The notes under the pieces were generated by a model. It worked only from the letters and a program-made list of their open reading frames with translations. It was not told the DNA's origin and ran no database searches. Made by a program: the position numbers and the translations under genes. From Owenia fusiformis (Eukaryota > Annelida > Polychaeta > Sabellida > Oweniidae), in NCBI GenBank assembly GCA_903813345.2, contig CAIIXF020000007.1:21129564-21193563 (forward strand): 64,000 nt of DNA, read 5' to 3'. Shown piece by piece: positions 1 to 64,000 of this stretch (position 1 is the first letter of the stretch; the number at the start of each line of letters is the position of its first letter).

Positions 1-301
1 TTGTTTTCTGCATATCTGCATGCGTAATGTTTATAAAATCATTTTGATCTCAAACCAGTAACCGTAACTGTTCATTTCATTTTAGTCCTGTCAAATAAAT
101 AATGAAAACATATTTGAGCATCTAACTGTAACATGTTCAATATACTACATTTATTATAACAGACTATTATACACAGGAAAGCATTTATCTTATAAAAGCA
201 GATTTTAAAAAGTTCCATTTTCATTCAATATCGCTGTTAGATTCTGTTTTCTCCATATATGCATGTGTAACGTTTAAAAAATCGTTCAAATCTCCTTTCA
301 G
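1..301 (+). other. Intron upstream of unit 1, diverged from the array
   Basis: This is the intron before exon A of unit 1, ending in a TTTCAG acceptor. It aligns with the other C-to-A introns but with many substitutions and indels, unlike the near-identity elsewhere. Positions 1-50 also resemble the last 60 bases of the same intron (about 238-298), suggesting an internal partial duplication. No exon seen. Confidence 0.6.
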
Positions 302-1766
302 GAACAGGGAATACTGTTGTTACAACACAAGGTACTGCCATCACAACTGCAGTACAATGCATAGAATCAATTGGCATGGATGATGCACAGAAGATTGATG
401 AGGAAAATACCAAAGTATTGAATAACCAAGATGACTTCAGTGGAGTACAACCAAACCTGGATGCTTTGAAAGATAATGATCCAAACACAAAACTCCAAGC
501 ACAATTTAAACCATCGACTGAACCTAAAGAGTTAAACATATCAACAAAACTGAAAACTGACGTGTCTGTTCCAATTACCAAAGTGGAATTAACAGGCATG
601 GAAAATGTTGCATCAGTTACTGTCATTATCAAGGATGAAAATGGTGAAATAGTGACACAGGTATGAATGCGTGACGTTTTTGAAACTCCCTGAAACTAAA
701 ATATAATAGATATCCGAGTGTGGAATACATGCTTTTCCTTGTAATTAATTTAAAGAATGCTAAATATGATTTCATTTTTATTTTTGTCAAGATGGTTTAA
801 GATTATTTCAAAAACAAAGTATTGTAATTATGTAATTTATTTGGTTTCTTTTAGACACCCAAAACAACTGTTGATGTTGATTCTGCAATTGTAAATCTTG
901 AGAATACTGAAGGGGTTGAAATCATTGTGATCTTCACTTCAAAACCAAATGATATGCCCATGGAAATTGGAGATTTGAGACCAACTGCTTGCTTGAAAAT
1001 ACAAACAACACCCGGAGCAACGACTGTACCATCAACATCCCAGGGTACAAATATTTTATAAACATAAAGCATGCCTGAGTTTTATACTTAAATAGAAGAT
1101 CCCATCATTTTTAAAAGAAAATCTTATAACTATATCCAGTGAAGTAATGGATAATTAAAACCGAAAATCCAACAAGTACAGTGGTACAATTCCAAACCAT
1201 ATCCTTAAGGATGTTCCCTGGACGAAGTTGAAAACGATGAACACCAACCCCTAATTTTTCTTTTCAAAATGTGAAGTACATAGCATAACTAAGTGTTTCT
1301 GTGAGTTTAAGAAAAAGTTAAATATTCAAAAGTGTGTTTTGGGGTGAAAACCTGATTTTTAACATGGGTTTCAATGAGAAAGTGCCACGCCCACATTTGT
1401 CAAATATTGACACTTTAGAGGCCTCTTGCTCAGAAAAAAGCACACTAACATATGGTTTTTAAAGTTTTAATATTCTTTGTTGCCCGTGAGAATCCCAGAA
1501 AACCATTTTTGAGAAAAAGTTAAATACTATTGAATATTTTCCTATCTGACCAGGGAACATCCTTAAATCGAGTAAAGCTTCTATTGCGCTTATCATTGGT
1601 GTAAAATGAACTTACTTAACACAATTCTTCATTTAAGTCTATAATACAAGAGAAAGCTGAGCATAAATCTTAATTCTAAAATATACATTAATTTCAGTTT
1701 CTACTGTACCAAGCACTTCCTCGCCTAGTACATTAACGTCAGCCTCTACAACACAGCCATCCACGG
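302..1766 (+). CDS. Array 1 unit 1 (exons A, B, C)
   Basis: Exons A 302-660, B 855-1044, C 1698-1766. Exon A starts with a Thr-rich linker, then the first domain cysteine (in VQCIES, codon at 358), a conserved NDPNTKL motif, an N-glycosylation sequon (NIST) and the strand-like ITKVELTGMENVASVTV. Exon B carries EGVEIIVIF and ends the domain with EIGDLRPTAC. Exon C encodes a Ser/Thr/Pro linker. The two cysteines of each module are likely partners in one disulphide (inference). Phases are 1, 0, 1, 1. The intron after B carries a 354-bp TTAA-flanked element; the donor after C is GTAAGT. Exon A ends in Gln. Confidence 0.88.
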
Positions 1767-4700
1767 GTAAGTATATCCAAAAATGGTGATGAAGTTTCGA
1801 TATTTCCCCTTAAAATATAAAATCGGTAACGTTGTAATCAAATGATTTCCAATAAAAATTTTACTGATAGCACTAGTCAATGCTTGATTTCGAGATTCTA
1901 GAAGATATGTACTTTGTTTATTTTCCAGCTTAAAATTACATTTGAACCATTTCATTTTTTTGTTTACTATACAGAAAGTCGACATTACGTGTGAAACATT
2001 TTCATGATAATTGTTTTCAAGGAAGTAAAAATCTCATATAACATGAACTACAAGTGAAGAAGAATTATTCCTAAATTACATCAGATAATTCTCAGAACTG
2101 TACAGACCATACTCTAGATTCTAGTTACCCCACTTTTATGTTCATCTTAAGTGTTAAGTATTAAATTCATTTTATTCCTGCTCAATAAATAATTACACAA
2201 TATTTTAGCATCTAACTTTAATACGTTCAATATAATACATTTCTGATAACGAAGCTATTGTACACAGTAAATCATTTATTTTTTAAAAGCATATTTTAAA
2301 CCTTTCAATCTTCAATTCAAAATCGAAATTAGATTCTGTTTTCTGCACATCTACATCTGAAACGTTTAAACGTATTTTAATCTCCATTCAGGAACAGGAA
2401 ATACTGTTGTTACAACACAAGGTACTGCCATCACAACTGCAGTACAATGCATAGAATCAATTGGCATGGATGATGCACAGAAGATTGATGAGGAAAATAC
2501 CAAAGTATTGAATAACCAAGATGACTTCAGTGGAGTACAACCAAACCTGGATGCTTTGAAAGATAATGATCCAAACACAAAACTCCAAGCACAATTTAAA
2601 CCATCGACTGAACCTAAAGAGTTAAACATATCAACAAAACTGAAAACTGACGTGTCTGTTCCAATTACCAAAGTGGAATTAACAGGCATGGAAAATGTTG
2701 CATCAGTTACTGTCATTATCAAGGATGAAAATGGTGAAATAGTGACAGAGGTATGAATGCGTGACGTTTTTGAAACTCCCTGAAACTAAAATATAATAGA
2801 TATCCGAGAGTGGAACACATGCTTTTCCTTGTAATTAATTTAAAGAATGCTAAATATGATTTCATTTTTATTTTTGTCAAGATGGTTTAAGATTATTTCA
2901 AAAACAAAGTATTGTAATTATGTAATTTATTTGGTTTCTTTTAGACACCCAAAACAACTGTTGATGTTGATTCTGCAATTGTAAATCTTGAGAATACTGA
3001 AGGGGTTGAAATCATTGTGATCTTCACTTCAAAACCAAATGATATGCCCATGGAGATTGGAGATTTGAGACCAACTGCTTGCTTGAAAATACAAACAACA
3101 CCCGGAGCAACGACTGTACCATCAACATCCCAGGGTACAAATATTTTATAAACATAAAGCATGCCTGAGTTTTATAGTTAAATAGAAGATCCCATCATTT
3201 TTAAAAGCCAATCGTATACCTATATCCAGTGAAGTAATGGATAATTAAAGCCAAAAATCCAGCTAGTACAGTGGTACAATTCCAAACCATATCCTTGAAT
3301 CGAGTAAAGCTTCTGTTGCGCTTATCATTGGTGTAAAATGAACTTACTTAACACAATTCTTCATTTCAGTCTATAACACAAGAGAAAGCTGAGCATAAAT
3401 CTTAATTCTAAAATATACATTAATTTCAGTTTCTACTGTACCAAGCACTTCCTCGCCTAGTACATTAATGTCAGCCTCTACAACACAGCCATCCACGGGT
3501 TAGTATATCCAAAAATAGTGATGAAGTTTCGATATTTCCTCTTAAAATATAGAATCGGTAACGTTGAAATCAAATGTTTTCCAATAAAAATTTTACTGAT
3601 AGCACTAGTCAATGCTTGATTTCGAGATTCTAGAAGATATGCACTTTGTTTATTTTCCAGCTTAAAATTACATTTGAACCATTTCATTTGTTTGTTTACT
3701 ATACAGAAAATCGACACTACGTGTGAAACATTTTCATGATAATTGTTTTCAAGGAAGTAAAAATCTCATATAACATGAAGTACAAGTGAAGAAGAATTAT
3801 TCCTAAATTACATCAGATAATTCTCAGAACTGTACAAACCATACTCTAGACTCTAGTTACCCCACTTTTATGTTCATCTTAAGTGTTAAGTATTAAATTC
3901 ATTTTATTCCTCCTCAATAAATAATTACACAATATTTTAGCATCTAACTTTAATACGTTCAATATAATACATTTCTGATAACGAAGCTATTGTACACAGT
4001 AAATCATTTATTTTTTAAAAGCATATTTTAAACCTTTCAATCTTCAATTCAAAATCGAAATTAGATTCTGTTTTCTGCATATCTACATCTGAAACGTTTA
4101 AACGTATTTTAATCTCAATTCAGGAACAGGAAATACTGTTGTTACAACACAAGGTACTGCCATCACAACTGCAGTACAATGCATAGAATCAATTGGCATG
4201 GATGATGCACAGAAGATTGATGAGGAAAATACCAAAGTATTGAATAACCAAGATGACTTCAGTGGAGTACAACCAAACCTGGATGCTTTGAAAGATAATG
4301 ATCCAAACACAAAACTCCAAGCACAATTTAAACCATCGACTGAACCTAAAGAGTTAAACATATCAACAAAACTGAAAACTGACGTGTCTGTTCCAATTAC
4401 CAAAGTGGAATTAACAGGCATGGAAAATGTTGCATCAGTTACTGTCATTATCAAGGATGAAAATGGTGAAATAGTGACACAGGTATGAATGCGTGACGTT
4501 TTTGAAACTCCCTGAAACTAAAATATAATAGATATCCGAGAGTGGAACACATGCTTTTCCTTGTAATTAATTTAAAGAATGCTAAATATGATTTCATTTT
4601 TATTTTTGTCAAGATGGTTTAAGATTATTTCAAAAACAAAGTATTGTAATTATGTAATTTATTTGGTTTCTTTTAGACACCCAAAACAACTGTTGATGTT

Positions 4701-7700
4701 GATTCTGCAATTGTAAATCTTGAGAATACTGAAGGGGTTGAAATCATTGTGATCTTCACTTCAAAACCAAATGATATGCCCATGGAAATTGGAGATTTGA
4801 GACCAACTGCTTGCTTGAAAATACAAACAACACCCGGAGCAACGACTGTACCATCAACATCCCAGGGTACAAATATTTTATAAACATAAAGCATGCCTGA
4901 GTTTTATAGTTAAATAGAAGATCCCATCATTTTTAAAAGCCAATCTTATACCTATATCCAGTGAAGTAATGGATAATTAAAGCCGAAAATCCAGCTAGTA
5001 CAGTGGTACAATTCCAAACCATATCCTTAAATCGAGTAAAGCTTCTATTGCGCTTATCATTGGTGTAAAATGAACTTACTTAACACAATTCTTCATTTAA
5101 GTCTATAATACAAGAGAAAGCTGAGCATAAATCTTAATTCTAAAATATACATTAATTTCAGTTTCTACTGTACCAAGCACTTCCTCGCCTAGTACATTAA
5201 CGTCAGCCTCTACAACACAGCCATCCACGGGTTAGTATATACAAAAATGGTGATGAAGTTTCGATATTTCCTCTTAAAATATAGAATCGGTAACGTTGAA
5301 ATCAAATGTTTTCCAATAAAGATTTTACTGATAGCACTAGTCAATGCTTGATTTCGAGATTCTAGAAGATATGCACTTTGTTTATTTTCCAGCTTAAAAT
5401 TACATTTGAACCATTTCATTTGTTTGTTTACTATACAGAAAATCGACACTACGTGTGAAAATTTTCATGATAAATGTTTTCAAGGAAGTAAAAATCTCAT
5501 ATAACATGAAGTACAAGTGAAGAAGAATTATTCCTAAATTACATCAGATAATTCTCAGAACTGTACAGACCATACTCTAGACTCTAGTTACCCCACTTTT
5601 ATGTTCATACTTAAGTGTTAAGTATTAAATTCATTTTATTCCTGCTCAATAAATAATTACACAATATTTTAGCATCTAACTTTAATACTTTCAATATAAT
5701 ACATTTCTGATAACGAAGCTATTGTACACAGTAAATCATTTATTTTTTAAAAGCATACAGGGTGTCCGGAAAGTAAAGATACAAATGCTCTAATTTCATT
5801 TGATTTACCTGTTGTGAGATGAAATTGCTACAGATTGTGGAATTACATTGTAACAATTTCTCCTGCAACTGTCATGACAAATTGTTTCAAAATAAAAAAG
5901 TTATGGTTGTTATGGTAACATGAGTCATGGGTATGTGGAGCAGCGTCACAATTATGTTTTATATTTCTTTTCTCCTGTTCATATCATCTTGACGCTCGAT
6001 CGTCTGTTGCTATTATGCATCAAATTATGTACCACCACAGCGAAAGGATTAGTACTGTAACATTATTTAATCATTTGACATTACTACTGTTATCCAGTAT
6101 TACTAGTTTGTATTTTCCACCTTTATCTAAACATTCTTGGTGCATTTTGACCGGAAATTCAAAGACCTGACAAAACCATTGCTGTCAGTCTCTAAGATTG
6201 CCAATATCATTGGCTTCCAGCCTAGTCTCATTTTTATGTTGAACTTCTCACAAATATTGCTTTAACATATTCATTAATGTTGAAGTCCAACGGTACATCC
6301 TCAGGAAAATATGGGCCATTGTACAAAAAGGTTAATGTCAAGATATTCAATTGTAAGATTTGTTTTCTTTGCTTTGTGCATTGAACATTGACTGTGGATG
6401 TGCACTATTGACTTTCCTATTAATCCAGGGACCCTTTTTCTAAGCACTATTATACCCTTTTTTCTTTGATTATACTTGTGACATTACATAATTCTGATAT
6501 GTATCAATGATACCGTTAATACTAAAGATAATACTATGGCAGCAAGAATATAATATTGAACAGAAAAAACTGATAAGAAATACAATAATAAACACTATTT
6601 CAAATGGTTATATTTTAGCAATTTATGACAATTTAGCGATATCCTGGAACTGCTCCGCATACCCCTCACCCCCGTAACCATGACAACTGTAACTTTAACA
6701 CATTTAGACTATATTGTTATAAAGGTTGGTAGATGTATTCTACTGTAGTTCCTCTACAATCTGTAGTGATTTCATTACAAAAAAACTAAATCTCATAAAA
6801 TTAGAGTATTTGTATCTTTACTTTCCGGACACCCTGTATTTTAAACCTTTCAATCTTCAATTCAAAATCGAAATTAGATTCTGTTTTCTGCACATCTACA
6901 TCTGAAACGTTTAAACGTATTTTAATCTCCATTCAGGAACAGGAAATACTGTTGTTACAACACAAGGTACTGCCATCACAACTGCAGTACAATGCATAGA
7001 ATCAATTGGCATGGATGATGCACAGAAGATTGATGAGGAAAATACCAAAGTATTGAATAACCAAGATGACTTCAGTGGAGTACAACCAAACCTGGATGCT
7101 TTGAAAGATAATGATCCAAACACAAAACTCCAAGCACAATTTAAACCATCGACTGAACCTAAAGAGTTAAACATATCAACAAAATTGAAAACTGACGTGT
7201 CTGTTCCAATTACCAAAGTGGAATTAACAGGCATGGAAAATGTTGCATCAGTTACTGTCATTATCAAGGATGAAAATGGTGAAATAGTGACAGAGGTATG
7301 AATGCGTGACGTTTTAGAAACTCCCTGAAACTAAAATATAATAGATATCCGAGAGTGGAACACATGCTTTTCCTTGTAATTAATTTAAAGAATGCTAAAT
7401 ATGATTTCATTTTTATTTTTGTCAAGATGGTTTAAGATTATTTCAAAAACAAAGTATTGTAATTATGTAATTTATTTGGTTTCTTTTAGACACCCAAAAC
7501 AACTGTTGATGTTGATTCTGCAATTGTAAATCTTGAGAATACTGAAGGGGTTGAAATCATTGTGATCTTCAATTCAAAACCAAATGATATGCCCATGGAA
7601 ATTGGAGATTTGAGACCAACTGCTTGCTTGAAAATACAAACAACACCCGGAGCAACGACTGTACCATCAACATCCCAGGGTACAAATATTTTATAAACAT

Positions 7701-55700: not shown

Positions 55701-58700
55701 CCATTTTTCAATGAATAAAGTCACCTTGTTGCTGTTAACTTTAAATGCAGTATCATTGTCTATGTTCTAGCATCGTCAAGCTCTACATTTACAACAGAGT
55801 CTGGTGTTAAAGATCAGACACAAACGACAACAACACCATTGATGCCAACAGGTATGCACACTCCAACACAAGGCACAGCTTCAGCACCATCATCAACTGG
55901 AGCAACAACACTTTCAGGAACCACACAAACTGTTACTGAAGAAATTTCAACAGGAACAAACTCTGGTAAATTTAGTACATAATGCTTTTGAGAGACATTA
56001 ATAATAGATGAAGGATGTGGGGTTTTATTGTAACACTTATGAGTTAGGGAGTTATTGACTGATGTTCCATGATATTTAATCTATAGCAAAAACTGAACAC
56101 ATGGAAATGACATCACACCTTTCTCTGGAGCCATTACGGGTCACAATTATGCTGGAAATTTACTTTGGAAGCTATATTTAACGATATTTAGTGATGAAAC
56201 TGGTATATAGATATTGAAGATTTCCAGATAAAATATCTTGATTTACCTAATATGCTTAGTTCGATACCCACATGCAACATATCAGCATGTTAAGACAATA
56301 TAACTCCACAAAATTCCTTTATTCAATGTTCACTCGTGTTTTTAAGATGACGCCTGTGTAGATCCTCGTGTAATTGCTTTTGTTTTATTATACCATGTGT
56401 ATATTATTGTCAACGCTAGGTACAACGTCTGTAACCAGTTTCACATCTGCTCAAAGTACAACATTTGCACCAGGTACAACATCTACACCAGGTACATCAT
56501 CTGGAACAAGTACAACATCTGAAACAGGAACAACACTCAGAACAAGTATGCAAAATTAGTTTATTCATTGACATTTACATCTTAGTTGTCCAGAAAGAAA
56601 AGTAGATAAGTTACACTGCAATTAATACTCCTTCGACGCATGTCCATGCCTTGTGAAACTATTGATAATGTTTAATGAAGAGATAATTTCCTTTTAGGGG
56701 AATCCACATCTGGAACTCCTGTCGTCACAACCATGGCACCATGTACATATGTTGTCAAAATGAGTGATGCGAATGTGGTTGACTTGACACAAAGTGAAAT
56801 ATTGAATGAAAATGGAGAATTCACACAAAGACCAGATCTAGGTGCTTTAACCGATGATAATCCTAATACAAAACTCGTGGGACAGTTTAGTTCAACGACA
56901 GAGTCACAAACTTTAATTATGTCTACAATGCTTAAAACTAACAACCAAGATGTTGAAATAAGCAGTGTGCTACTAACAGGACTGCAAAACGTTGAAATCG
57001 TTACTGTCACAATCAAGAATACAGATGGCAACAATGTGGAAACGGTATGAACACATAGTAGTTTCATAGAAATAAATGTTACTGATTAAAACCGAAGACA
57101 CATGAAAGGAAAAACACTAAAAAATGTAGTGTTGTTCACTTTGTCGAATTAAATTTGAAATACGTTCCAAAACTTACATCATCCTAAGATAAAAACAAAC
57201 TTGTTTGAGTTGTCAATGCTGTGTCATCCAGTCAAATTCCAGCTTCTTTCAAGTTACCTTTAATTAAAGCAATATTAAACAAATTTTATAGACCATGTAA
57301 ATGACATTTGCCTTTAAATGTAAATTTGGTTTACCAATATATCTTATGAGCTTATGAGACTAAATGTCCAATTAAATACCAATATATTGAATAATAAAAT
57401 TTTAGGATGAGTAGCCATGAACATCTAAAGTCAGTACACTATAATAAGGTAATTTGCTGATTTTTAGAAATCTGAAGACGTTGCTGGCGGGTCTGCCAAG
57501 ATTACTCTTCCTCAACATACTGAAGGAGTTGAAGTTATCATATCATACAGTGTGATGACCGACACAACTTTTGAAATCGGAGATATGACAATAATTGCTT
57601 GCATAGAAGAAACAACAACGGTTGGAACAACTGCTGTGCCAGCCACGACAAGCCAAGGTATGAATTACATGCAGTATTTATTATTAAAGATGAACTAAAT
57701 CCTTGCAATATAAACTCATATTTTTTTAAGCAACATTAGAATCTTAATCGATGAGGCATAATAAATATATGCTTTCACTTTTATGATCTGCAGACTAAAT
57801 TATTAGCCATGAGTTGGAGATATTGGATATATTCCAGCAACAATATTTTATAATTCGATTTTATTCCCCAGTGTTAGAGGATTTAGTGAATTTAACATCT
57901 CAATACTTGGGTATTCATTTTTCTAAACATTAGTCCATATTTATTAACATTGTGTTATACAAATCAAAGTCAATGATCAAATTATGTTTTTAGCCAAAAT
58001 CTTCTAGTAATCAATATATCATGAAGGTTAGTGTTGAAGTTGAATAACTTACCTAACGTTTTAGTTGTGATCCTCGTCTCATTTGAAGCATACTTTTACT
58101 TGCAGCCTCTACAGTATCAAGTACTACTTCACCCAGTACATCATCATTAGCTCCGACAACACAGCCCTCCACTAGTAAGACTTTTTTATGATTTACTCTA
58201 TTACTGTATTTTCAGATGTCGTTTAAACCATTTTTCAATGAATAAAGTCACCTTGTTGCTGTTAACTTTAAATGCAGTATCATTGTCTATGTTCTAGCAT
58301 CGTCAAGCTCTACATTTACAACAGAGTCTGGTGTTAAAGATCAGACACAAACGACAACAACACCATTGATGCCAACAGGTATGCACACTCCAACACAAGG
58401 CACAGCTTCAGCACCATCATCAACTGGAGCAACAACACTTTCAGGAACCACACAAACTGTTACTGAAGAAATTTCAACAGGAACAAACTCTGGTAAATTT
58501 AGTACATAATGCTTTTGAGAGACATTAATAATAGATGAAGGATGTGGGGTTTTATTGTAACACTTATGAGTTAGGGAGTTATTGACTGATGTTCCATGAT
58601 ATTTAATCTATAGCAAAAACTGAACACATGGAAATGACATCACACCTTTCTCTGGAGCCATTACGGGTCACAATTATGCTGGAAATTTACTTTGGAAGCT

Positions 58701-61700
58701 ATATTTAACGATATTTAGTGATGAAACTGGTATATAGATATTGAAGATTTCCAGATAAAATATCTTGATTTACCTAATATGCTTAGTTCGATACCCACAT
58801 GCAACATATCAGCATGTTAAGACAATATAACTCCACAAAATTCCTTTATTCAATGTTCACTCGTGTTTTTAAGATGACGCCTGTGTAGATCCTCGTGTAA
58901 TTGCTTTTGTTTTATTATACCATGTGTATATTATTGTCAACGCTAGGTACAACGTCTGTAACCAGTTTCACATCTGCTCAAAGTACAACATTTGCACCAG
59001 GTACAACATCTACACCAGGTACATCATCTGGAACAAGTACAACATCTGAAACAGGAACAACACTCAGAACAAGTATGCAAAATTAGTTTATTCATTGACA
59101 TTTACATCTTAGTTGTCCAGAAAGAAAAGTAGATAAGTTACACTGCAATTAATACTCCTTCGACGCATGTCCATGCCTTGTGAAACTATTGATAATGTTT
59201 AATGAAGAGATAATTTCCTTTTAGGGGAATCCACATCTGGAACTCCTGTCGTCACAACCATGGCACCATGTACATATGTTGTCAAAATGAGTGATGCGAA
59301 TGTGGTTGACTTGACACAAAGTGAAATATTGAATGAAAATGGAGAATTCACACAAAGACCAGATCTAGGTGCTTTAACCGATGATAATCCTAATACAAAA
59401 CTTGTTGGACAGTTTAGTTCAACGACAGAGTCACAAACTTTAATTATGTCTACAATGCTTAAAACTAACAACCAAGATGTTGAAATAAGCAGTGTGCTAC
59501 TAACAGGACTGCAAAACGTTGAAATCGTTACTGTCACAATCAAGAATACAGATGGCAACAATGTGGAAACGGTATGAACACATAGTAGTGTCATAGAAAT
59601 AAATGTTACTGATTAAAACCGAAGACACATGAAAGGAAAAACACTAAAAAATGTAGTGTTGTTCACTTTGTCGAATTAAATTTGAAATACGTTCCAAAAC
59701 TTACATCATCCTAAGATAAAAACAAACTTGTTTGAGTTGTCAATGCTTGGTCATCCAGTCAAATTCCAGCTTCTTTCAAGTTACCTTTAATTAAAGCAAT
59801 ATTAAACACAAATTTTATAGACCATGTAAATGACATTTGCCTTTAAATGTAAATTTGGTTTACCAATATATCTTATGAGCTTATGAGACTAAATGTCCAA
59901 TTAAATACCAATATTTTGAATAATTAAATTTTAGGATGAGTAGCCATGAACATCTAAAGTCAGTACACTATAATAAGGTAATTTGCTGATTTTTAGAAAT
60001 CTGAAGACGTTGCTGGCGGGTCTGCCAAGATTACTCTTCCTCGACATACTGAAGGAGTTGAAGTTATCATATCATACAGTGTGATGACCGACACAACTTT
60101 TGAAATCGGAGATATGACAATAATTGCTTGCATAGAAGAAACAACAACGGTTGGAACAACTGCTGTGCCAGCCACGACAAGCCAAGGTATGAATTACATG
60201 CAGTATTTATTATTAAAGATGAACTAAATCCTTGCAATATAAACTCATATTTTTTTAAGCAACATTAGAATCTTTATCGATGAGGCATAATAAATATATG
60301 CTTTCACTTTTATGATCTGCAGACTAAATTATTAGCCATGAGTTGGAGATATTGGATATATTCCAGCAACAATATTTTATAATTCGATTTTATTCCCCAG
60401 TGTTAGAGGATTTAGTGAATTTAACATCTCAATACTTGGGTATTCATTTTTCTAAACATTAGTCCATATTTATTAACATTGTGTTATACAAATCAAAGTC
60501 AATGATCAAATTATGTTTTTAGCCAAAATCTTCTAGTAATCAATATATCATGAAGGTTAGTGTTGAAGTTGAATAACTTACCTAACGTTTTAGTTGTGAT
60601 CCTCATCTCATTTGAAGCATACTTTTACTTGCAGCCTCTACAGTATCAAGTACTACTTCACCCAGTACATCATCATTAGCTTCGACAACACAGCCCTCCA
60701 CTAGTAAGACTTTTTTATGATTTACTCTATTACTGTATTTTCTGATGTCGTTTAAACCATTTCTCAATGAATAAAGTCACCTTGTTGCTGTTAACTTTAA
60801 ATGCAGTATCATTGTCTATGTTCTAGCATCGTCAAGCTCTACATTTACAACAGAGTCTGGTGTTAAAGATCAGACACAAACGACAACAACACCATTGATG
60901 CCAACAGGTATGCACACTCCAACACAAGGCACAGCTTCAGCACCATCATCAACTGGAGCAACAACACTTTCAGGAACCACACAAACTGCTACTGAAGAAA
61001 TTTCAACAGGAACAAACTCTGGTAAATTTAGTACATAATGCTTTTGAGAGACATTAATAATAGATGAAGGATGTGGGGTTTTATTGTAACACTTATGAGT
61101 TAGGGAGTTATTGACTGATGTTCCATGATATTTAATCTATAGCAAAAACTGAACACATGAAAATGACATCACACCTTTCTCTGGAGCCATTACGGGTCAC
61201 AATTATGCTGGAAATTTACTTTGGAAGCTATATTTAACGATATTTAGTGATGAAACTGGTATATAGATGTTGAAGATTTCCAGATAAAATATCTTGATTT
61301 ACCTAATATGCTTAGTTCGATACCCACATGCAACATATCAGCATGTTAAGACAATATAACTCCACAAAATTCCTTTATTCAATGTTCACTCGTGTTTTTA
61401 AGATGACGCCTGTGTAGATCCTCGTGTAATTGCTTTTGTTTTATTATACCATGTGTATATTATTGTCAACGCTAGGTACAACGTCTGTAACCAGTTTCAC
61501 ATCTGCTCAAAGTACAACATTTGCACCAGGTACAACATCTACACCAGGTACATCATCTGGAACAAGTACAACATCTGAAACAGGAACAACACTCAGAACA
61601 AGTATGCAAAATTAGTTTATTCATTGACATTTACATCTTAGTTGTCCAGAAAGAAAAGTAGATAAGTTACACTGCAATTAATACTCCTTCGACGCATGTC

Positions 61701-63550
61701 CATGCCTTGTGAAACTATTGATAATGTTTAATGAAGAGATAATTTCCTTTTAGGGGAATCCACATCTGGAACTCCTGTCGTCACAACCATGGCACCATGT
61801 ACATATGTTGTCAAAATGAGTGATGCGAATGTGGTTGACTTGACACAAAGTGAAATATTGAATGAAAATGGAGAATTCACACAAAGACCAGATCTAGGTG
61901 CTTTAACCGATGATAATCCTAATACAAAACTTGTTGGACAGTTTAGTTCAACGACAGAGTCACAAACTTTAATTATGTCTACAATGCTTAAAACTAACAA
62001 CCAAGATGTTGAAATAAGCAGTGTGCTACTAACAGGACTGCAAAACGTTGAAATCGTTACTGTCACAATCAAGAATACAGATGGCAACAATGTGGAAACG
62101 GTATGAACACATAGTAGTGTCATAGAAATAAATGTTACTGATTAAAACCGAAGACACATGAAAGGAAAAACACTAAAAAATGTAGTGTTGTTCACTTTGT
62201 CGAATTAAATTTGAAATACGTTCCAAAACTTACATCATCCTAAGATAAAAACAAACTTGTTTGAGTTGTCAATGCTTGGTCATCCAGTCAAATTCCAGCT
62301 TCTTTCAAGTTACCTTTAATTAAAGCAATATTAAACACAAATTTTATAGACCATGTAAATGACATTTGCCTTTAAATGTAAATTTGGTTTACCAATATAT
62401 CTTATGAGCTTATGAGACTAAATGTCCAATTAAATACCAATATTTTGAATAATTAAATTTTAGGATGAGTAGCCATGAACATCTAAAGTCAGTACACTAT
62501 AATAAGGTAATTTGCTGATTTTTAGAAATCTGAAGACGTTGCTGGCGGGTCTGCCAAGATTACTCTTCCTCGACATACTGAAGGAGTTGAAGTTATCATA
62601 TCATACAGTGTGATGACCGACACAACTTTTGAAATCGGAGATATGACAATAATTGCTTGCATAGAAGAAACAACAACGGTTGGAACAACTGCTGTGCCAG
62701 CCACGACAAGCCAAGGTATGAATTACATGCAGTATTTATTATTAAAGATGAACTAAATCCTTGCAATATAAACTCATATTTTTTTAAGCAACATTAGAAT
62801 CTTTATCGATGAGGCATAATAAATATATGCTTTCACTTTTATGATCTGCAGACTAAATTATTAGCCATGAGTTGGAGATATTGGATATATTCCAGCAACA
62901 ATATTTTATAATTCGATTTTATTCCCCAGTGTTAGAGGATTTAGTGAATTTAACATCTCAATACTTGGGTATTCATTTTTCTAAACATTAGTCCATATTT
63001 ATTAACATTGTGTTATACAAATCAAAGTCAATGATCAAATTATGTTTTTAGCCAAAATCTTCTAGTAATCAATATATCATGAAGGTTAGTGTTGAAGTTG
63101 AATAACTTACCTAACGTTTTAGTTGTGATCCTCATCTCATTTGAAGCATACTTTTACTTGCAGCCTCTACAGTATCAAGTACTACTTCACCCAGTACATC
63201 ATCATTAGCTTCGACAACACAGCCCTCCACTAGTAAGACTTTTTTATGATTTACTCTATTACTGTATTTTCTGATGTCGTTTAAACCATTTCTCAATGAA
63301 TAAAGTCACCTTGTTGCTGTTAACTTTAAATGCAGTATCATTGTCTATGTTCTAGCATCGTCAAGCTCTACATTTACAACAGAGTCTGGTGTTAAAGATC
63401 AGACACAAACGACAACAACACCATTGATGCCAACAGGTATGCACACTCCAACACAAGGCACAGCTTCAGCACCATCATCAACTGGAGCAACAACACTTTC
63501 AGGAACCACACAAACTGCTACTGAAGAAATTTCAACAGGAACAAACTCTG
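302..63550 (+). CDS. Giant modular secreted glycoprotein gene, internal part (101 exons, both ends outside the window)
   Basis: All exons chain in frame on the + strand: each ends at a GT donor, the next follows an AG acceptor, and codon phases match at all junctions, for 18,744 coding nt (6,248 codons). Order of encoded parts: 18 modules of 206 residues, a single-copy core of 1,037 residues with TIL/VWC-like, LDLa and diverged two-cysteine domains, then five modules of 309 residues. Linkers are rich in Thr, Ser and Pro, as in O-glycosylated mucins. The architecture resembles SCO-spondin, hemocytin, gel-forming mucins and large invertebrate adhesive proteins, but no VWD, C8 or thrombospondin domain is seen, so no named orthologue is proposed. 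A secreted location is inferred from the disulphide-rich domains; the signal peptide must lie upstream. That it is one gene rather than two adjacent genes is inferred from phase continuity and from absence of a start or terminal stop. Confidence 0.82.
1209..1562. mobile_element. 354-bp piggyBac-like MITE (TTAA target site)
   Basis: The insertion interrupts the B-to-C intron of unit 1. It is flanked by TTAA at 1205-1208 and 1563-1566, and has perfect 13-bp terminal inverted repeats, GGATGTTCCCTGG and CCAGGGAACATCC. The other 17 units have the empty site with one TTAA, and the unit is exactly 358 bp longer (354 + 4), confirming the boundaries. TTAA duplication is typical of piggyBac-type elements. 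No coding capacity, so non-autonomous. Confidence 0.92.
2392..3498 (+). CDS. Array 1 unit 2 (exons A, B, C)
   Basis: Exons A 2392-2750, B 2945-3134, C 3430-3498. Same two-cysteine domain and linker as unit 1. Exon A ends in Glu. Exon C has one replacement, Thr to Met (ATG at the TTA-ATG-TCA stretch). Units 2, 8 and 9 share an intron subtype (CGTATACC after exon B, CCTCCTCAATAA before the next exon A). Confidence 0.88.
4124..5230 (+). CDS. Array 1 unit 3 (exons A, B, C)
   Basis: Exons A 4124-4482, B 4677-4866, C 5162-5230. Exon A ends in Gln. The following C-to-A intron contains the 1,079-bp TA-flanked transposon at 5758-6836. Unit 3 corresponds to unit 10 at an offset of about 13,761 bp. Confidence 0.88.
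5758..6836. mobile_element. 1,079-bp non-autonomous Tc1/mariner-type element, copy 1
   Basis: Begins CAGGGTGTCCGGAAAGTAAA and ends with its complement, flanked by TA at 5756-5757 and 6837-6838. The empty site in other units is a single TA in GCATATTTTAAAC. The period is 1,081 bp longer (1,079 + TA). The inverted repeat continues imperfectly inward for roughly 190 bp, including GGAGCAG/CTGCTCC blocks. TA duplication and the CAGGGTGTCC end are typical of Tc1/mariner relatives. No transposase reading frame is seen. Confidence 0.92.
6937..8043 (+). CDS. Array 1 unit 4 (exons A, B, C)
   Basis: Exons A 6937-7295, B 7490-7679, C 7975-8043. Exon A has a silent Leu codon change (AAATTG) shared only with unit 11. 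Exon B has Thr to Asn in the VIFTSKP stretch, which creates an N-S-K string but no sequon. Intron differences such as AATTCTAGAAG are also shared with unit 11. Confidence 0.88.
8669..9775 (+). CDS. Array 1 unit 5 (exons A, B, C)
   Basis: Exons A 8669-9027, B 9222-9411, C 9707-9775. A silent GAC codon in exon A is shared only with unit 12, and the intron variant TTAGATAGAAG after exon B is likewise shared with unit 12. Confidence 0.88.
10406..11512 (+). CDS. Array 1 unit 6 (exons A, B, C), exon A acceptor mutated
   Basis: Exons A 10406-10764 by homology, B 10959-11148, C 11444-11512. The usual acceptor TTCAG is TTCGG here (10401-10405), so the AG is missing. The next AG, at 10410-10411, would start the exon at 10412, remove only two linker codons and keep the frame. 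The upstream intron also has a 5-bp insertion near 10345 that makes this period 1,737 bp. Exon B has Gln to Pro (IPTTPG) and a GTATAA donor; exon C has Thr to Ser. Confidence 0.8.
12138..13243 (+). CDS. Array 1 unit 7 (exons A, B, C)
   Basis: Exons A 12138-12496, B 12691-12880, C 13175-13243. Standard module; exon C has a silent GTG. The B-to-C intron is one base shorter than usual. Confidence 0.88.
13869..14975 (+). CDS. Array 1 unit 8 (exons A, B, C)
   Basis: Exons A 13869-14227, B 14422-14611, C 14907-14975. Exon B has a silent GCT; exon C has Pro to Arg (GTA-CGA-AGC). Intron subtype shared with units 2 and 9. Confidence 0.88.
15601..16707 (+). CDS. Array 1 unit 9 (exons A, B, C)
   Basis: Exons A 15601-15959, B 16154-16343, C 16639-16707. 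Exon A has Val to Leu just before the first domain cysteine (ATTACAATGC) plus silent changes. The following intron carries a 548-bp insertion at 16875-17422. Confidence 0.88.
16875..17422. mobile_element. 548-bp insertion with TTAA(A) duplication
   Basis: Interrupts the C-to-A intron of unit 9 inside CCAGCTTAAAATTAC. TTAAA is present on both sides (16870-16874, 17423-17427), and the period is 552 bp longer, matching 548 + 5 less a 1-bp deletion in the same intron. Ends are weakly inverted (AGGGACAATACCGG against the complement of CCGGAACTCGGCCT). More GC-rich than the host intron. Probably a TTAA-targeting MITE; no reading frame. Confidence 0.75.
17885..18991 (+). CDS. Array 1 unit 10 (exons A, B, C)
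   Basis: Exons A 17885-18243, B 18438-18627, C 18923-18991. Near-copy of unit 3, including Gln at the end of exon A. Exon C has Ser to Leu (TCT-TTG-CCT). The following intron carries the second copy of the 1.08-kb transposon. Confidence 0.88.
19519..20596. mobile_element. 1,078-bp non-autonomous Tc1/mariner-type element, copy 2
   Basis: Same element, same position in the unit and same orientation as at 5758-6836, with the same TA flanks (19517-19518, 20597-20598). By eye it differs by a C/G change near 20011 and a one-base deletion in an A-run near 20323. It was copied with its host units, not inserted twice. Confidence 0.92.
20697..21803 (+). CDS. Array 1 unit 11 (exons A, B, C)
   Basis: Exons A 20697-21055, B 21250-21439, C 21735-21803. 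Near-copy of unit 4, sharing its silent Leu codon and intron variants, but exon B keeps the consensus Thr, so the Asn in unit 4 arose after the duplication or was converted back here. Confidence 0.88.
22429..23535 (+). CDS. Array 1 unit 12 (exons A, B, C)
   Basis: Exons A 22429-22787, B 22982-23171, C 23467-23535. Shares the silent GAC of unit 5 in exon A and TTAGATAG after exon B. From about 23243 it stops matching unit 5 and instead matches units 3 and 10 (GTATATACAAAAATGG after exon C), marking a recombination or conversion switch. Confidence 0.88.
24161..25267 (+). CDS. Array 1 unit 13 (exons A, B, C)
   Basis: Exons A 24161-24519, B 24714-24903, C 25199-25267. Standard module with a silent AAT in exon A; the downstream intron is one base longer. 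Confidence 0.88.
25894..27000 (+). CDS. Array 1 unit 14 (exons A, B, C)
   Basis: Exons A 25894-26252, B 26447-26636, C 26932-27000. The exon A acceptor is TTTAG instead of TTCAG, still valid. Ile to Met four codons before the end of exon A (GAA-ATG-GTG-ACA-CAG). Ends in Gln. Confidence 0.88.
27626..28732 (+). CDS. Array 1 unit 15 (exons A, B, C)
   Basis: Exons A 27626-27984, B 28179-28368, C 28664-28732. The most diverged unit at protein level: Val to Leu and Ala to Thr in the exon A linker, Val to Ile in exon B (ACTATACCA), Pro to Ser in exon C (CAGTCATCC). All lie in linkers; the domain itself is unchanged. Confidence 0.88.
29358..30464 (+). CDS. Array 1 unit 16 (exons A, B, C)
   Basis: Exons A 29358-29716, B 29911-30100, C 30396-30464. 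Standard module; a silent ACT in the linker of exon A; ends in Glu. Confidence 0.88.
31090..32196 (+). CDS. Array 1 unit 17 (exons A, B, C)
   Basis: Exons A 31090-31448, B 31643-31832, C 32128-32196. Pro to Leu in exon B (ACACTCGGA) and Ser to Pro in exon C. The intron variants AAAAGAAAATC after B, the GTAAGT donor after C and GAAAGTCGAC are shared with unit 1, 16 units away. Confidence 0.88.
32822..33919 (+). CDS. Array 1 unit 18 (exons A, B, C), last of the array
   Basis: Exons A 32822-33180, B 33375-33564, C 33851-33919. Protein matches consensus; silent changes in B (ATA) and C (GTT, CTA). The B-to-C intron lacks 10 bases (CTTACTTAAC missing near 33771). Array identity ends shortly after exon C. 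Confidence 0.88.
33920..34786 (+). other. Intron at the right edge of array 1, decayed unit remnant
   Basis: The first 30 bases match the array, then identity is lost. Homology to the array intron reappears at about 34204-34270 (TTTCCCAATAAATTTCACTTATTACC, then CAATGCTTG), so this is an old, diverged C-to-A intron with about 240 bp of foreign or diverged sequence. A 16-base C run lies at 34443-34458 beside GGCTACGCCTATGC, probably the decayed end of an interspersed repeat. Confidence 0.55.
34787..34825 (+). CDS. Core exon 1: Thr/Ser/Ala linker
   Basis: A 39-nt exon after TTTATAG and before GTATGT, phase 1 to phase 1, encoding ASTMVTTAASTPG with split codons at both ends. It joins exon C of unit 18 (G + CT = Ala) to the next exon (G + GT = Gly). 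It resembles the linker at the start of exon A and may be a shortened remnant of it. Confidence 0.7.
34826..36740 (+). other. Intron 1 of the core (1.9 kb)
   Basis: About half is the palindromic transposon. The rest (35771-36740) has no convincing exon. Short open frames here begin or end in transposon or intron sequence and show no domain. ACGAGGGGTGATCCAAAAGT at about 36684 resembles a lone end of another mariner-type element. Confidence 0.5.
34836..35770. mobile_element. 935-bp palindromic Tc1/mariner-type element with transposase tails
   Basis: Ends are CAGGGTGACAGGAAAAAGG and the complement of CAGGGTGACAAGGAAAAGG. The two halves are inverted copies along almost the whole length. TA follows the right end; the left flank is TT, so the TA duplication is imperfect. 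The + strand at about 35416-35493 reads NPPNLFLWGYLKDSV and then stops; the minus strand at about 35188-35140 reads PPGFFLWDFLKDKVY. Both resemble the end of a DDE transposase of the Tc1/mariner/IS630 superfamily. It sits 10 bp after the donor of core exon 1. Confidence 0.82.
36741..36839 (+). CDS. Core exon 2: start of a cysteine-rich TIL-like segment
   Basis: A 99-nt exon, phase 1 to 1, after AAATATAG and before GTAAGT. It encodes a short Thr/Pro lead, then cysteines in PPSCNSENGEY, LATCSET and YCPDVNMT. The spacing suits the first part of a TIL domain completed by the next exon. Confidence 0.75.
37133..37605. repeat. Candidate 473-bp MITE in a core intron
   Basis: GGAGAGTTTAAGCT at the left and AGCTTAAACTCTCC at the right are perfect 14-bp inverted repeats in the intron before core exon 3. 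A short ATT flanks both ends. No coding capacity seen. The target duplication is too short to classify it. Confidence 0.5.
37796..37911 (+). CDS. Core exon 3: TIL domain
   Basis: A 116-nt exon, phase 1 to 0, after CTTCAG and before GTGAGT. It reads ...LECCMCQNGRLFNDEGKCV, then W-A-C-T-T-C and NIDGN. The CC-x-C, G-x-x-F-x-x-x-G-x-CV and later C-x-x-C spacing is that of TIL modules in vWF, mucins and SCO-spondin. Those modules help set disulphide assembly in secreted multimers (family knowledge). Confidence 0.82.
38087..38392. mobile_element. 306-bp MITE related to the 935-bp palindromic element
   Basis: Starts CAGGGTGACCAAAAAGGGAA, ends with GGTTACCCTG, and is flanked by TA at 38085-38086 and 38393-38394. 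Internal blocks such as GACAATATCTCCTAAACTAG, ATCAATGAAATTT and CCTGAAAGTTTCAAT match the right arm of 34836-35770 on the other strand, so the two belong to one family. Confidence 0.85.
38545..38691 (+). CDS. Core exon 4: VWC-like cysteine-rich segment
   Basis: A 147-nt exon, phase 0 to 0, after TTACAG and before GTATGC. It encodes a polar lead (PLYTQFDELVSGTEDC) and then C-x3-C, C-x3-C, C and C, ending TPTCAE. It continues the previous TIL module. The frame is fixed by open translation across both junctions. Confidence 0.78.
38858..38906 (+). CDS. Core exon 5: short connector
   Basis: A 49-nt exon, phase 0 to 1, after ATTTTAG and before GTGAGT. It encodes GTIMVTDVNGLPICQR with one cysteine and probably closes the VWC-like segment begun in core exon 4. 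Confidence 0.7.
39330..39535 (+). CDS. Core exon 6: LDL-receptor class A domain
   Basis: A 206-nt exon, phase 1 to 0. A Thr/Ser/Pro linker precedes CGEGQISCEDSCSCYTPD, then QKCDGKEDCLNGLDELGC. Six cysteines have LDLa spacing and the acidic D-x-x-D-C-x-x-G-x-D-E pattern is mostly kept, but with Asn for the usual Asp and Leu for the usual Ser, so calcium binding may be altered. It ends with C-D-C and an N-glycosylation sequon (NGTN is not one because Gly-Thr follow as N-G-T: it is N-x-T). The exon runs straight into the VWC module. Confidence 0.88.
39739..39895 (+). CDS. Core exon 7: VWC domain
   Basis: A 157-nt exon, phase 0 to 1. It reads GGGLQWNECTYCECSNDS, then KCVKTCNKTCEEG and DCCECTK. 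The W-x2-C-x2-C-x-C opening and final CC-x-C are VWC hallmarks. VWC modules mediate assembly and binding of BMP-type ligands or polymer partners in other proteins; which applies here is unknown. N-K-T is a possible glycosylation site. Confidence 0.85.
39896..41497 (+). other. 1.6-kb intron of the core
   Basis: No exon found. A GC-richer patch at about 40840-40900 (CTTTCCCCGAGCCTATGGCC and CTTTCGGGG) and another at about 41140-41250 look like interspersed repeat remnants, without clear ends. Confidence 0.4.
41498..41746 (+). CDS. Core exon 8: diverged two-cysteine domain, first part
   Basis: A 249-nt exon, phase 1 to 1. A cysteine-rich lead (ARCQPGDPGY, LCKDSDCDPVKNTSCVY) is followed by PPPCETSIVSTIINKQG, where the cysteine matches the first cysteine of exon A. 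The rest aligns loosely with exon A, ending at SYSDINLADGI. N-T-T and N-T-S are possible glycosylation sites. Confidence 0.8.
41804..42679. mobile_element. 876-bp palindromic Tc1-type element
   Basis: Ends CACTCCCCTCCATAAGTTTG and its complement, flanked by TA at 41802-41803 and 42680-42681. The arms are inverted copies for several hundred bases, imperfect toward the centre. It could form a long hairpin in RNA. No transposase frame seen. Confidence 0.9.
42682..43342 (+). other. Rest of the intron before core exon 9: interspersed repeat sequence
   Basis: Contains a CGTACG/CCGT/GTCTGTCTG-rich block (about 42760-42800) and two copies of a CAGCCATTTTGAAAATGGC-like inverted motif (about 42935 and 43083). 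These are features of dispersed repeats in marine invertebrate genomes. No gene; the minus-strand open frame here is repeat-derived. Confidence 0.45.
43343..43467 (+). CDS. Core exon 9: diverged two-cysteine domain, middle part
   Basis: A 125-nt exon, phase 1 to 0. It contains NMSVKVTNVESVAVAIAST, which lines up with VPITKVELTGMENVASVTV in exon A. Thus exons 8 and 9 together match exon A with an extra phase 1 intron. It ends at the phase 0 junction equivalent to A/B. N-M-S is a sequon. Confidence 0.82.
43920..44076 (+). CDS. Core exon 10: diverged two-cysteine domain, last part
   Basis: A 157-nt exon, phase 0 to 1, equivalent to exon B. It ends FYLSNLEIHTCDQ, matching EIGDLRPTAC of the array, so the second cysteine and hydrophobic pattern are kept while most residues differ. 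Confidence 0.82.
44275..44477 (+). CDS. Core exon 11: cysteine-rich TIL-like segment
   Basis: A 203-nt exon, phase 1 to 0. Cysteines occur in CEPKCGHNSC, EQCFCRSGY, LYCKK and PCVCEHNN. C-x-C-x3-G followed by spaced cysteines is TIL-like. N-V-T near the end is a sequon. Confidence 0.8.
44869..44948 (+). CDS. Core exon 12: VWC-like connector
   Basis: An 80-nt exon, phase 0 to 2, after TTTTAAG and before GTAAGC. It encodes VREVGCEKYTCGSDGIMM and ends in LW followed by a split Cys codon (TG + T). It continues the cysteine-rich segment of core exon 11. Confidence 0.72.
45050..45188 (+). CDS. Core exon 13: Thr-rich linker then cysteine-rich segment
   Basis: A 139-nt exon, phase 2 to 0. The split Cys is followed by a Thr/Ser/Pro linker (TATVPTFPITSTGAPTT) and CKDMGNCFIDNKCM. 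The donor may be GTAATT at 45189 (used here) or GTGGTA at 45186; both keep phase 0 and differ by one Val. Confidence 0.7.
45189..46565 (+). other. 1.4-kb intron of the core
   Basis: No exon found. ATGTCCCCATCA near 46095 and TGATGGGGACAT near 46446 are 12-bp inverted repeats bounding about 363 bp, a possible MITE. A small hairpin CCGTATCAGAGATACGG lies near 46370. Confidence 0.45.
46566..46725 (+). CDS. Core exon 14: VWC domain
   Basis: A 160-nt exon, phase 0 to 1. With core exon 13 it reads ...SSWSPEDNDCTTYTCEDG, then ERCAEVICNEQ and GSCCSKC. W-x-x-x-x-x-x-C, C-x4-C and terminal CC-x-x-C are VWC features. Confidence 0.82.
46726..47522 (+). other. 0.8-kb intron of the core
   Basis: No exon found. 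A GC-richer block at about 46980-47370 (CCCCGCAGGTCTAGGC, GTACCCCGAACG) looks like an interspersed repeat without clear ends. Confidence 0.4.
47523..47646 (+). CDS. Core exon 15: shortened LDLa domain
   Basis: A 124-nt exon, phase 1 to 2. VCTGTGVHHCDGVDDCIDG followed by SDEQLLKC has the complete LDLa calcium motif (D-x-x-D-C-x-D-G-S-D-E). Only four of the usual six cysteines lie in this exon, so it is an N-terminally shortened LDLa. N-E-T is a sequon. Confidence 0.82.
47756..47951 (+). CDS. Core exon 16: TIL domain
   Basis: A 196-nt exon, phase 2 to 0. It contains HCCLCKEGQHYNGTDCVPI, then DQCGCEFNGTMYN: the CC-x-C-x2-G-x-x-Y-x-x-x-x-CV-x3-x-C-x-C pattern is typical of TIL domains in vWF/mucin/SCO-spondin proteins. 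Two sequons (N-G-T). The donor region is tandemly duplicated (20 bp); the first donor keeps frame with the next exon. Confidence 0.86.
47947..47988 (+). repeat. 20-bp tandem duplication spanning a splice donor
   Basis: TATAATGTAAGAGCTTCTGA is followed at once by TATAATGTAAGAACGTCTGA, giving donors at 47952 and 47972. Use of the second adds 20 nt and breaks frame with core exon 17, so the first is taken as the normal site. Confidence 0.8.
48062..48157 (+). CDS. Core exon 17: VWC first half
   Basis: A 96-nt exon, phase 0 to 0. It reads DVWIYDCVKHICKSGN and VHCNECK. W-x-x-x-C-x3-x-C-x-x-G is the VWC start that follows TIL in this protein class. Confidence 0.78.
48449..48503 (+). CDS. Core exon 18: VWC end
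   Basis: A 55-nt exon, phase 0 to 1, encoding ASQTPLLMDTDDCCETCV. CC-x-x-C closes the VWC module of core exon 17. Acceptor CTGTAG, donor GTAAGA. Confidence 0.75.
48504..49382 (+). other. 0.9-kb intron of the core
   Basis: AT-rich; a short AAT run near 48668. No exon or transposon end recognised. Confidence 0.4.
49383..49657 (+). CDS. Core exon 19: diverged two-cysteine domain, A-like part
   Basis: A 275-nt exon, phase 1 to 0, like exon A. It begins ECKKESAMTDIFTVVYLNN (first cysteine) and continues SVTSINVRAVDIADG, matching ITKVELTG of the arrays in position. N-E-S in FNESSDY is a sequon. Confidence 0.8.
49883..50078 (+). CDS. Core exon 20: diverged two-cysteine domain, B-like part plus linker
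   Basis: A 196-nt exon, phase 0 to 1, like exon B. It reads LSSVTLLVDVEIC (second cysteine) and then a Thr/Ser-rich linker ending TPVTTTEQ. Core exons 19-23 form a diverged 'unit 0' of array 2. Confidence 0.82.
50079..50686 (+). other. Intron between core exons 20 and 21
   Basis: The last 200 bp are clearly homologous to the B'-to-C' intron of array 2 (TATACAAATCAAGATCAATG, then TTTGAAGCATAATTTTAC) with numerous differences. The first part has no recognised feature. Confidence 0.6.
50687..50755 (+). CDS. Core exon 21: C-type linker exon
   Basis: 69 nt, phase 1 to 1, the same length and phase as exon C and C'. It encodes STVSSSASPSTTTLASTAQ and PST, an O-glycosylation-type linker. Proof that arrays 1 and 2 share this exon by descent. 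Confidence 0.85.
50871..50918 (+). CDS. Core exon 22: short D-tail linker exon
   Basis: 48 nt, phase 1 to 1, encoding TTQTITEEISTGTNS with split ends. It equals the last 48 nt of exon D' in array 2. Here it follows a normal TTTCAG acceptor; in D' the same TTTCAG sequence lies inside an open exon. Confidence 0.8.
51363..51488 (+). CDS. Core exon 23: E-type linker exon, left edge of array 2
   Basis: 126 nt, phase 1 to 1, encoding a Thr/Ser/Gly/Pro linker with repeats of the type GTTSTPGTSSGTST. The first half differs from E' of the array at several bases; from about 51419 onward it is identical, so array homogenisation begins inside this exon. Confidence 0.85.
51641..54016 (+). CDS. Array 2 unit 1 (exons A'-E')
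   Basis: Exons A' 51641-51987, B' 52413-52602, C' 53050-53118, D' 53242-53436, E' 53891-54016. A' has a linker, then APCTYVVKMSDANVVDLTQ with the first cysteine, DDNPNTKLVGQF (compare NDPNTKLQAQF in array 1) and ISSVLLTGLQNVEIVTVTI. B' has EGVEVIISY and ends EIGDMTIIACIEE with the second cysteine. C', D' and E' are Thr/Ser/Pro-rich linkers of about 130 residues in all. Unit 1 is distinguished by Ser (TCG) for Thr in B'. D' contains a 66-nt GT...AG in-frame segment (53323-53388). Confidence 0.88.
54169..56545 (+). CDS. Array 2 unit 2 (exons A'-E')
   Basis: Exons A' 54169-54515, B' 54941-55130, C' 55579-55647, D' 55771-55965, E' 56420-56545. Same module. D' has Val (GTT) in QTVTEE where units 1, 4 and 5 have Ala. 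Silent CTC-GTG in A' is shared with unit 3. Confidence 0.88.
56698..59072 (+). CDS. Array 2 unit 3 (exons A'-E')
   Basis: Exons A' 56698-57044, B' 57468-57657, C' 58106-58174, D' 58298-58492, E' 58947-59072. Ser to Pro in C' (GCT-CCG). The A'-to-B' intron is 2 bp shorter (CAC deleted and TGT variant near 57220-57280). Confidence 0.88.
59225..61601 (+). CDS. Array 2 unit 4 (exons A'-E')
   Basis: Exons A' 59225-59571, B' 59997-60186, C' 60635-60703, D' 60827-61021, E' 61476-61601. Gln to Arg in B' (CTCGACATACTG), shared with unit 5 only; the two also share intron variants such as CATAGTAGTGTCATAG, so they are the most recent duplication pair. Confidence 0.88.
61754..63550 (+). CDS. Array 2 unit 5 (exons A'-D'; E' beyond the edge)
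   Basis: Exons A' 61754-62100, B' 62526-62715, C' 63164-63232, D' 63356-63550. Near-copy of unit 4. The intron before E' runs to the window edge; in other units E' would start about six bases after it. Confidence 0.87.
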
Positions 63551-64000
63551 GTAAATTTAGTACATAATGCTTTTGAGAGACATTAATAATAGATGAAGGA
63601 TGTGGGGTTTTATTGTAACACTTATGAGTTAGGGAGTTATTGACTGATGTTCCATGATATTTAATCTATAGCAAAAACTGAACACATGAAAATGACATCA
63701 CACCTTTCTCTGGAGCCATTACGGGTCACAATTATGCTGGAAATTTACTTTGGAAGCTATATTTAACGATATTTAGTGATGAAACTGGTATATAGATGTT
63801 GAAGATTTCCAGATAAAATATCTTGATTTACCTAATATGCTTAGTTCGATACCCACATGCAACATATCAGCATGTTTAGACAATATAACTCCACAAAATT
63901 CCTTTATTCAATGTTCACTCGTGTTTTTAAGATGACGCTTGTGTAGATCCTCGTGTAATTGCTTTTGTTTTATTATACCATGTGTATATTATTGTCAACG

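Follow-up and report, generated by a model that had tools for sequence, protein, structure and literature searches.

The analysis performed in this study very probably places the window (the whole stretch of 64,000 nucleotides of Owenia fusiformis DNA that was analysed; C7:21129564-21193563, part of a 498-Mb, 525-contig genome) in the central part of one giant secreted gel-forming mucin gene, whose Pro/Thr/Ser-rich (PTS) middle would be interrupted by ~39 copies of a domain with only two cysteines (the two-Cys domain). The gene structure is established by prediction; its homologies, the history of its repeats and purifying selection in one repeat array (array 1) are established as well. For gene finding we used a splice-aware dynamic programme, combining codon preference, generic splice-site weights and phase-consistent chaining, which was built independently and fitted with no use of the model of an earlier, sequence-only reading of this DNA. 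It predicted 102 exons on the + strand of the window, comprising 18,813 coding bp (6,271 codons), with a chain score of 1207, versus 123 for the - strand and 5-14 for three Markov shuffles; chance open reading frames were rejected as an explanation. The 101 in-phase exons on one strand proposed by the earlier reading were thus closely reproduced.

When the window was extended by 40 kb on its upstream side and 70 kb on its downstream side, a single phase-consistent chain of ~211 predicted exons emerged, which opens with a signal-peptide exon and closes with a stop codon. It spans ~136 kb (from -23.5 kb to +112.8 kb in window coordinates, which are used throughout) and encodes ~13,700 residues. 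According to this model, the window is the middle portion of a single larger gene with both ends outside it, so that the earlier figure of more than 6,200 residues holds for the window and falls short of the gene total. The introns are predictions. Some short exons with scores under 3 may be mistaken, and because of such exons the total is uncertain by a few hundred residues; the 5' end of the model is one exon found by a scan, and a predicted exon at -1314, resembling part of a mobile element, was excluded. The predicted protein contains ~20% Thr and ~12% Ser (~32% Ser+Thr), and 80 exons with more than 45% P/T/S together supply 4,189 residues. The next recognisable coding sequence, at ~131 kb, is phospholipid phosphatase-like (read by eye).

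The N-terminal region lies upstream of the window, on the + strand. The signal-peptide exon (-23482..-23415; MWPSPLVLLAFLASFPAGLIGQ), in which the signal peptide was judged from hydrophobicity alone, has a strong donor and a phase matching the next exon. The first intron of the gene also contains a frame of ~300 codons resembling a non-LTR retroelement (-22026 to -21115). Three VWD-C8-TIL assemblies follow at -20130..-5968 (Pfam VWD 6e-32, C8 5e-27, TIL 2e-13), the first of the three VWD domains being degenerate and below Pfam detection. In a phmmer comparison with solved structures, the N terminus matched MUC5AC best (1.7e-108), then FCGBP, MUC2 (6e-90) and VWF (2e-88). VWC-like exons and the first PTS exon (-4227..-2261) come next, and the window opens with the intron leading into the first array (1..301, + strand).

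This array (array 1; 302..33951, + strand) consists of 18 copies of a 206-aa module, in which a two-Cys domain encoded by two exons is joined to a PTS linker exon (359+190+69 bp = 206 aa). In the type copy, exon A (4124..4482) encodes a Thr-rich lead and domain residues 1-101, exon B (4677..4866) the C-terminal third of the domain and a linker, and exon C (5162..5230) the PTS linker, all on the + strand; a peptide of the array is LQAQFKPSTEPK. By self-comparison, the unit measures ~1732 bp and the copies are ~98-98.5% identical, introns included. All 54 exons of the array (54/54) are open, with no frameshift or stop, and the splice dinucleotides are intact save for the exon A acceptor of copy 6 (GG for AG, 10404-10405), 6 bp downstream of which an in-frame AG is present. 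Tandem Repeats Finder left the arrays undetected because their period exceeds 500 bp. Every exon A of array 1 (302-33951) also carries, on the minus strand, an antisense open frame of ~139 codons, for which codon composition is the most likely reason.

Array 1 is followed by a cysteine-rich core (34787..50078, + strand), in which TIL/VWC/LDLa-like modules are accompanied by two diverged two-Cys domain copies, one in three predicted exons (41555..44076, + strand) and the other in two (49383..50078, + strand). Array 2 (50687..64000 within the window, + strand) has a 309-aa module (exons of 347+190+69+195+126 = 927 bp; peptide LVGQFSSTTESQTLIMSTMLK), whose unit of ~2.52-2.53 kb is ~98% identical between copies, introns included (self-comparison, in which the repeat extends from 50.9 kb to the window end). 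Five of its domain copies lie inside the window and a sixth just beyond it (64283-65244 or, more narrowly delimited, 64327-65207; + strand). The sequence-only reading had described these three parts, and its 18 x 206 residues for array 1, its at least 5 x 309 residues for array 2 and its single two-cysteine domain per module in both arrays were all recovered. Of the TIL/VWC/LDLa composition that it gave to the core, VWC gained support (E 1.3e-5, slightly short of the Pfam cut-off), while LDLa and TIL could be recognised by their cysteine patterns and gave zero Pfam matches. Its count of two separately amplified arrays was correct as far as it went, with a third array and long mucin exons now placed downstream. 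There, on the + strand, GTTSxx mucin exons (reaching 2016 bp, or 672 aa) accompany two further diverged two-Cys domain copies (67031-79197), array 3 contributes 11 domain copies (80148-105120), and the gene ends with PTS, TIL/VWC-like modules, a cystine knot and the stop (105681-112755). The tail modules gave zero Pfam matches; the C-terminal knot scored above the cut-off (Cys_knot PF00007, 6.1e-8) and the stop lies near 112,755.

The predicted protein therefore combines the features that define a gel-forming mucin: a signal peptide, three N-terminal VWD-C8-TIL assemblies, a long Pro/Thr/Ser region and a C-terminal cystine knot. As modelled, the gene encodes a variant of this known kind of protein and not a new kind. 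The earlier reading was right to propose a single long modular protein that is secreted and belongs to the mucin/VWF class; the terminal domains, which lie outside the window, are those of a canonical gel-forming mucin. It is unlikely that the region instead holds a cluster of mucin-like genes, two or three in number, each with its own array. A cysteine-rich or PTS core precedes each array, gene boundaries between the arrays are conceivable, and the close relationship of arrays 2 and 3 (84% amino acid identity in exon A) could reflect a tandem duplication. However, a single VWD-C8-TIL set and a single cystine knot were found in the 136 kb, situated at opposite ends with all arrays between them, which argues against transcript ends between the arrays. 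Moreover, exon phases are compatible throughout the chain, and a crude scan revealed no convincing signal-peptide exon before either array 2 or array 3.

The copies of array 1 record part of its history. Most of them differ by 1-2% and carry private variants and private insertions, such as those in an intron of copy 1 (1209-1558; inverted ends, TTAA flanks) and of copy 9 (16875-17422; inverted ends). Three pairs are much closer, with differences of 0.12% (copies 3 and 10), 0.18% (copies 4 and 11) and 0.66% (copies 2 and 9). The last introns of copies 3 (5757..6838) and 10 (19517..20598) also contain the same transposon, with a TA target site and inverted ends. This shared insertion, together with the near-identity of the three pairs, indicates a block duplication that involved about seven units. 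In array 2, copies 1-5 are less than 0.8% apart and copy 6 is diverged by 32% (in the stretch compared); array 3 has homogenised inner copies and diverged edge copies, and two of its copies are identical across the compared 2.3 kb. As read from these comparisons, the pattern across the arrays is the usual one for unequal exchange, and the arrays grew through unequal exchange and block duplication. The smallest differences (copies 3/10 and 4/11), the transposon common to copies 3 and 10 and the two identical copies of array 3 would also fit a false duplication during assembly, by which the near-identity of copies would be partly artefactual and the copy numbers wrong. This explanation is quite unlikely, considering that most copies are 1-2% apart with private variants and insertions of their own, and that the region, the window included, is free of N; the array copy numbers may nevertheless be off by a few.

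Selection on the arrays was apparent at two levels. Within array 1 we counted 13 synonymous versus 9 nonsynonymous variants (p=3e-4), and pN/pS was 0.19; both values show constraint on the protein (purifying selection). Between arrays, dN/dS was high (0.38-0.76), i.e. the constraint is weaker.

The two-Cys domain itself comprises ~150 residues and occurs in ~39 copies per chain, 35 of them in the three arrays. Its first and last cysteines are invariant across 13 diverged copies, some of which are only 15-20% identical to an array 1 copy. When these 13 copies were compared with Pfam at E values up to 10, no family was matched, with both PF00754 (F5/8C) and PF13330 absent; moreover, none of the PF13330 matches listed for the whole genome lies at the giant mucin locus. 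Identity with CysD (PF13330/WxxW, many cysteines) was rejected, since the domain has two cysteines only and no PF13330 match. Single-sequence Pfam and PDB searches returned FlgD_ig and alphaRep, which were set aside as chance-like. A profile of the 13 copies gave weak PDB matches to three proteins, namely TXNL1 (in its PITH domain), a fucolectin-related protein (2j22) and a CBM32 module (4a3z), with E 0.05-0.2 for those that are lectin-like. All three matched domains are galactose-binding-like sandwiches.

Gene structure provides a further comparison. An intron cuts the two-Cys domain after residue 101 of ~150 (67%); among the 150 F5/8C matches listed for the same genome, 41 stop precisely at position 82 of the 127-position profile, and 8 start at 83-86 (65-67%). 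A terminal cysteine pair and an intron at about two thirds are common to both domains, which also share a length of ~150 aa and the strand pattern. Several weak signs thus suggest that the two-Cys domain is a strongly diverged F5/8C (discoidin-like) domain, each copy probably forming a galactose-binding (F5/8C-like) beta-sandwich in which a disulfide would join the first and last residues. It differs from F5/8 type C domains in giving no PF00754 match even at E 10, and we have not filed it under F5/8C, because it failed the profile test and its fold is putative. The AlphaFold model of exon A alone (101 aa of a domain split by an intron) was poor (pLDDT 54, pTM 0.47). With this model VIA-align placed no galactose-binding-like lectin prominently, and its best match, the meningococcal factor H binding protein (Z 4.2), was judged meaningless.

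A search of the whole genome with four versions of the two-Cys domain produced matches at two loci only, i.e. the giant mucin gene and a paralogue located 14.5 Mb away on the - strand (C7:35659000-35759000; 35.66-35.76 Mb). The latter has the same plan and the same domain (~60% identical in its 8-copy array), in the order VWD-C8-TIL, LDLa, the 8-copy array, single two-Cys domains alternating with TTTGPV exons, and TSP1. It differs in that its single domains are separated by long TTTGPV PTS exons (370-760 residues), and in having an EMI/EGF-like start (by eye) and TSP1 repeats near its end; its model is incomplete. Another locus (C7:8215500-8249473) contains three C8, ~15 CysD (PF13330) and several F5/8C profile matches with long open frames. 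It resembles the giant mucin gene in the succession of three C8 matches and repeated small domains, and differs in that these are CysD (Mucin2_WxxW) and recognisable F5/8C, the genome search having found no two-Cys domain there. This locus (8.215-8.249 Mb) has the appearance of a protostome gel-forming mucin of the CysD type. Elsewhere the genome shows a Hox cluster arranged in lophotrochozoan order, a Lox5 with the motif KLTGP and the erythrocruorin linker family, features that by themselves point to a lophotrochozoan and probably to an annelid. A mollusc is made less likely by the lack of any match to the hemocyanin beta-sandwich, a weak negative because no positive control responded; a COX1 search gave no match.

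In known gel-forming mucins, the cystine knot (CTCK) dimerises the chains, D3 assemblies join the dimers, and CysD domains lie among the PTS stretches (PMC9169620); mucus is stiffened by repeated CYS domains (PMC6861317). By homology to MUC2, MUC5AC and VWF, the worm chains would pair by disulfide bonding of their C-terminal cystine knots, after which N-terminal D3 assemblies would link the dimers into long polymers, with a Thr/Ser/Pro middle that is presumably O-glycosylated. The two-Cys domains would hold the position of the vertebrate CysD domains, and for this reason they may be expected to act like CysD or to bind glycans. Most likely, they would provide many weak contacts, linking mucin strands to one another or to glycans or surfaces and so stiffening the gel or making it stick. 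We infer that the product functions in mucus, tube or adhesive. Our proposal for its origin is tentative and somewhat more doubtful than not: a diverged discoidin-like domain may have taken the CysD position and been amplified to ~39 copies (35 of them in three homogenised arrays), producing a mucin more than twice the size of MUC5B, in which cohesion or glycan binding would be set by array copy number.

These observations indicate that different domains can serve as the small disulfide domain that separates the glycosylated stretches of a mucin, and that tandem amplification allows worms to scale this design. In one genome that seemingly contains both a CysD type and a two-Cys type, the effect of the inter-PTS domain on gel stiffness or stickiness could be compared directly, and the set of near-identical domains is a natural resource for biomaterial work. 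The occurrence of CysD beside long open frames in an annelid is also relevant to the view that only deuterostomes combine CysD with PTS (PMC9169620).

Two groups of known proteins invite comparison with the giant mucin. The first comprises SCO-spondin and P-vulgata_3, a mucous adhesive of the limpet, which share with it VWD, C8, TIL and LDLa or LDLa-like modules (PMC7333891); SCO-spondin additionally has VWC and a cystine knot. Considering this likeness, and the TSP1 repeats near the end of the paralogue, the gene might encode a matrix protein of the SCO-spondin/hemocytin type instead of a mucin. We regard this as very unlikely: the middle is dominated by long Thr/Ser/Pro exons, the solved structures matched best are those of MUC5AC and then FCGBP, MUC2 and VWF, and TSP1, whose repeats SCO-spondin carries, is absent from the Pfam matches in the scanned parts of the gene (a subset of exons). 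Amplified two-Cys arrays are not reported for SCO-spondin or P-vulgata_3.

The second group, formed by MUC5AC, MUC5B and MUC2, corresponds to the gel-forming mucin that we favour. It shares the three N-terminal VWD-C8-TIL assemblies, a PTS middle with small disulfide domains, and a C-terminal VWC and cystine knot; VWD4 was not found in the worm model. The earlier statement that no described protein has this layout is thus valid for the middle region only, the overall plan being that of MUC2/5AC/5B. Within this plan the worm mucin is distinguished by (i) its length, ~13,700 residues versus 5,654-5,703 aa in the RefSeq entries of MUC5AC/5B (PMC9712336), (ii) its ~39 two-Cys domains, versus 7-9 CysD in vertebrate gel-forming mucins, and (iii) its many, mostly phase-1 exons, whereas the vertebrate genes have one giant middle exon.
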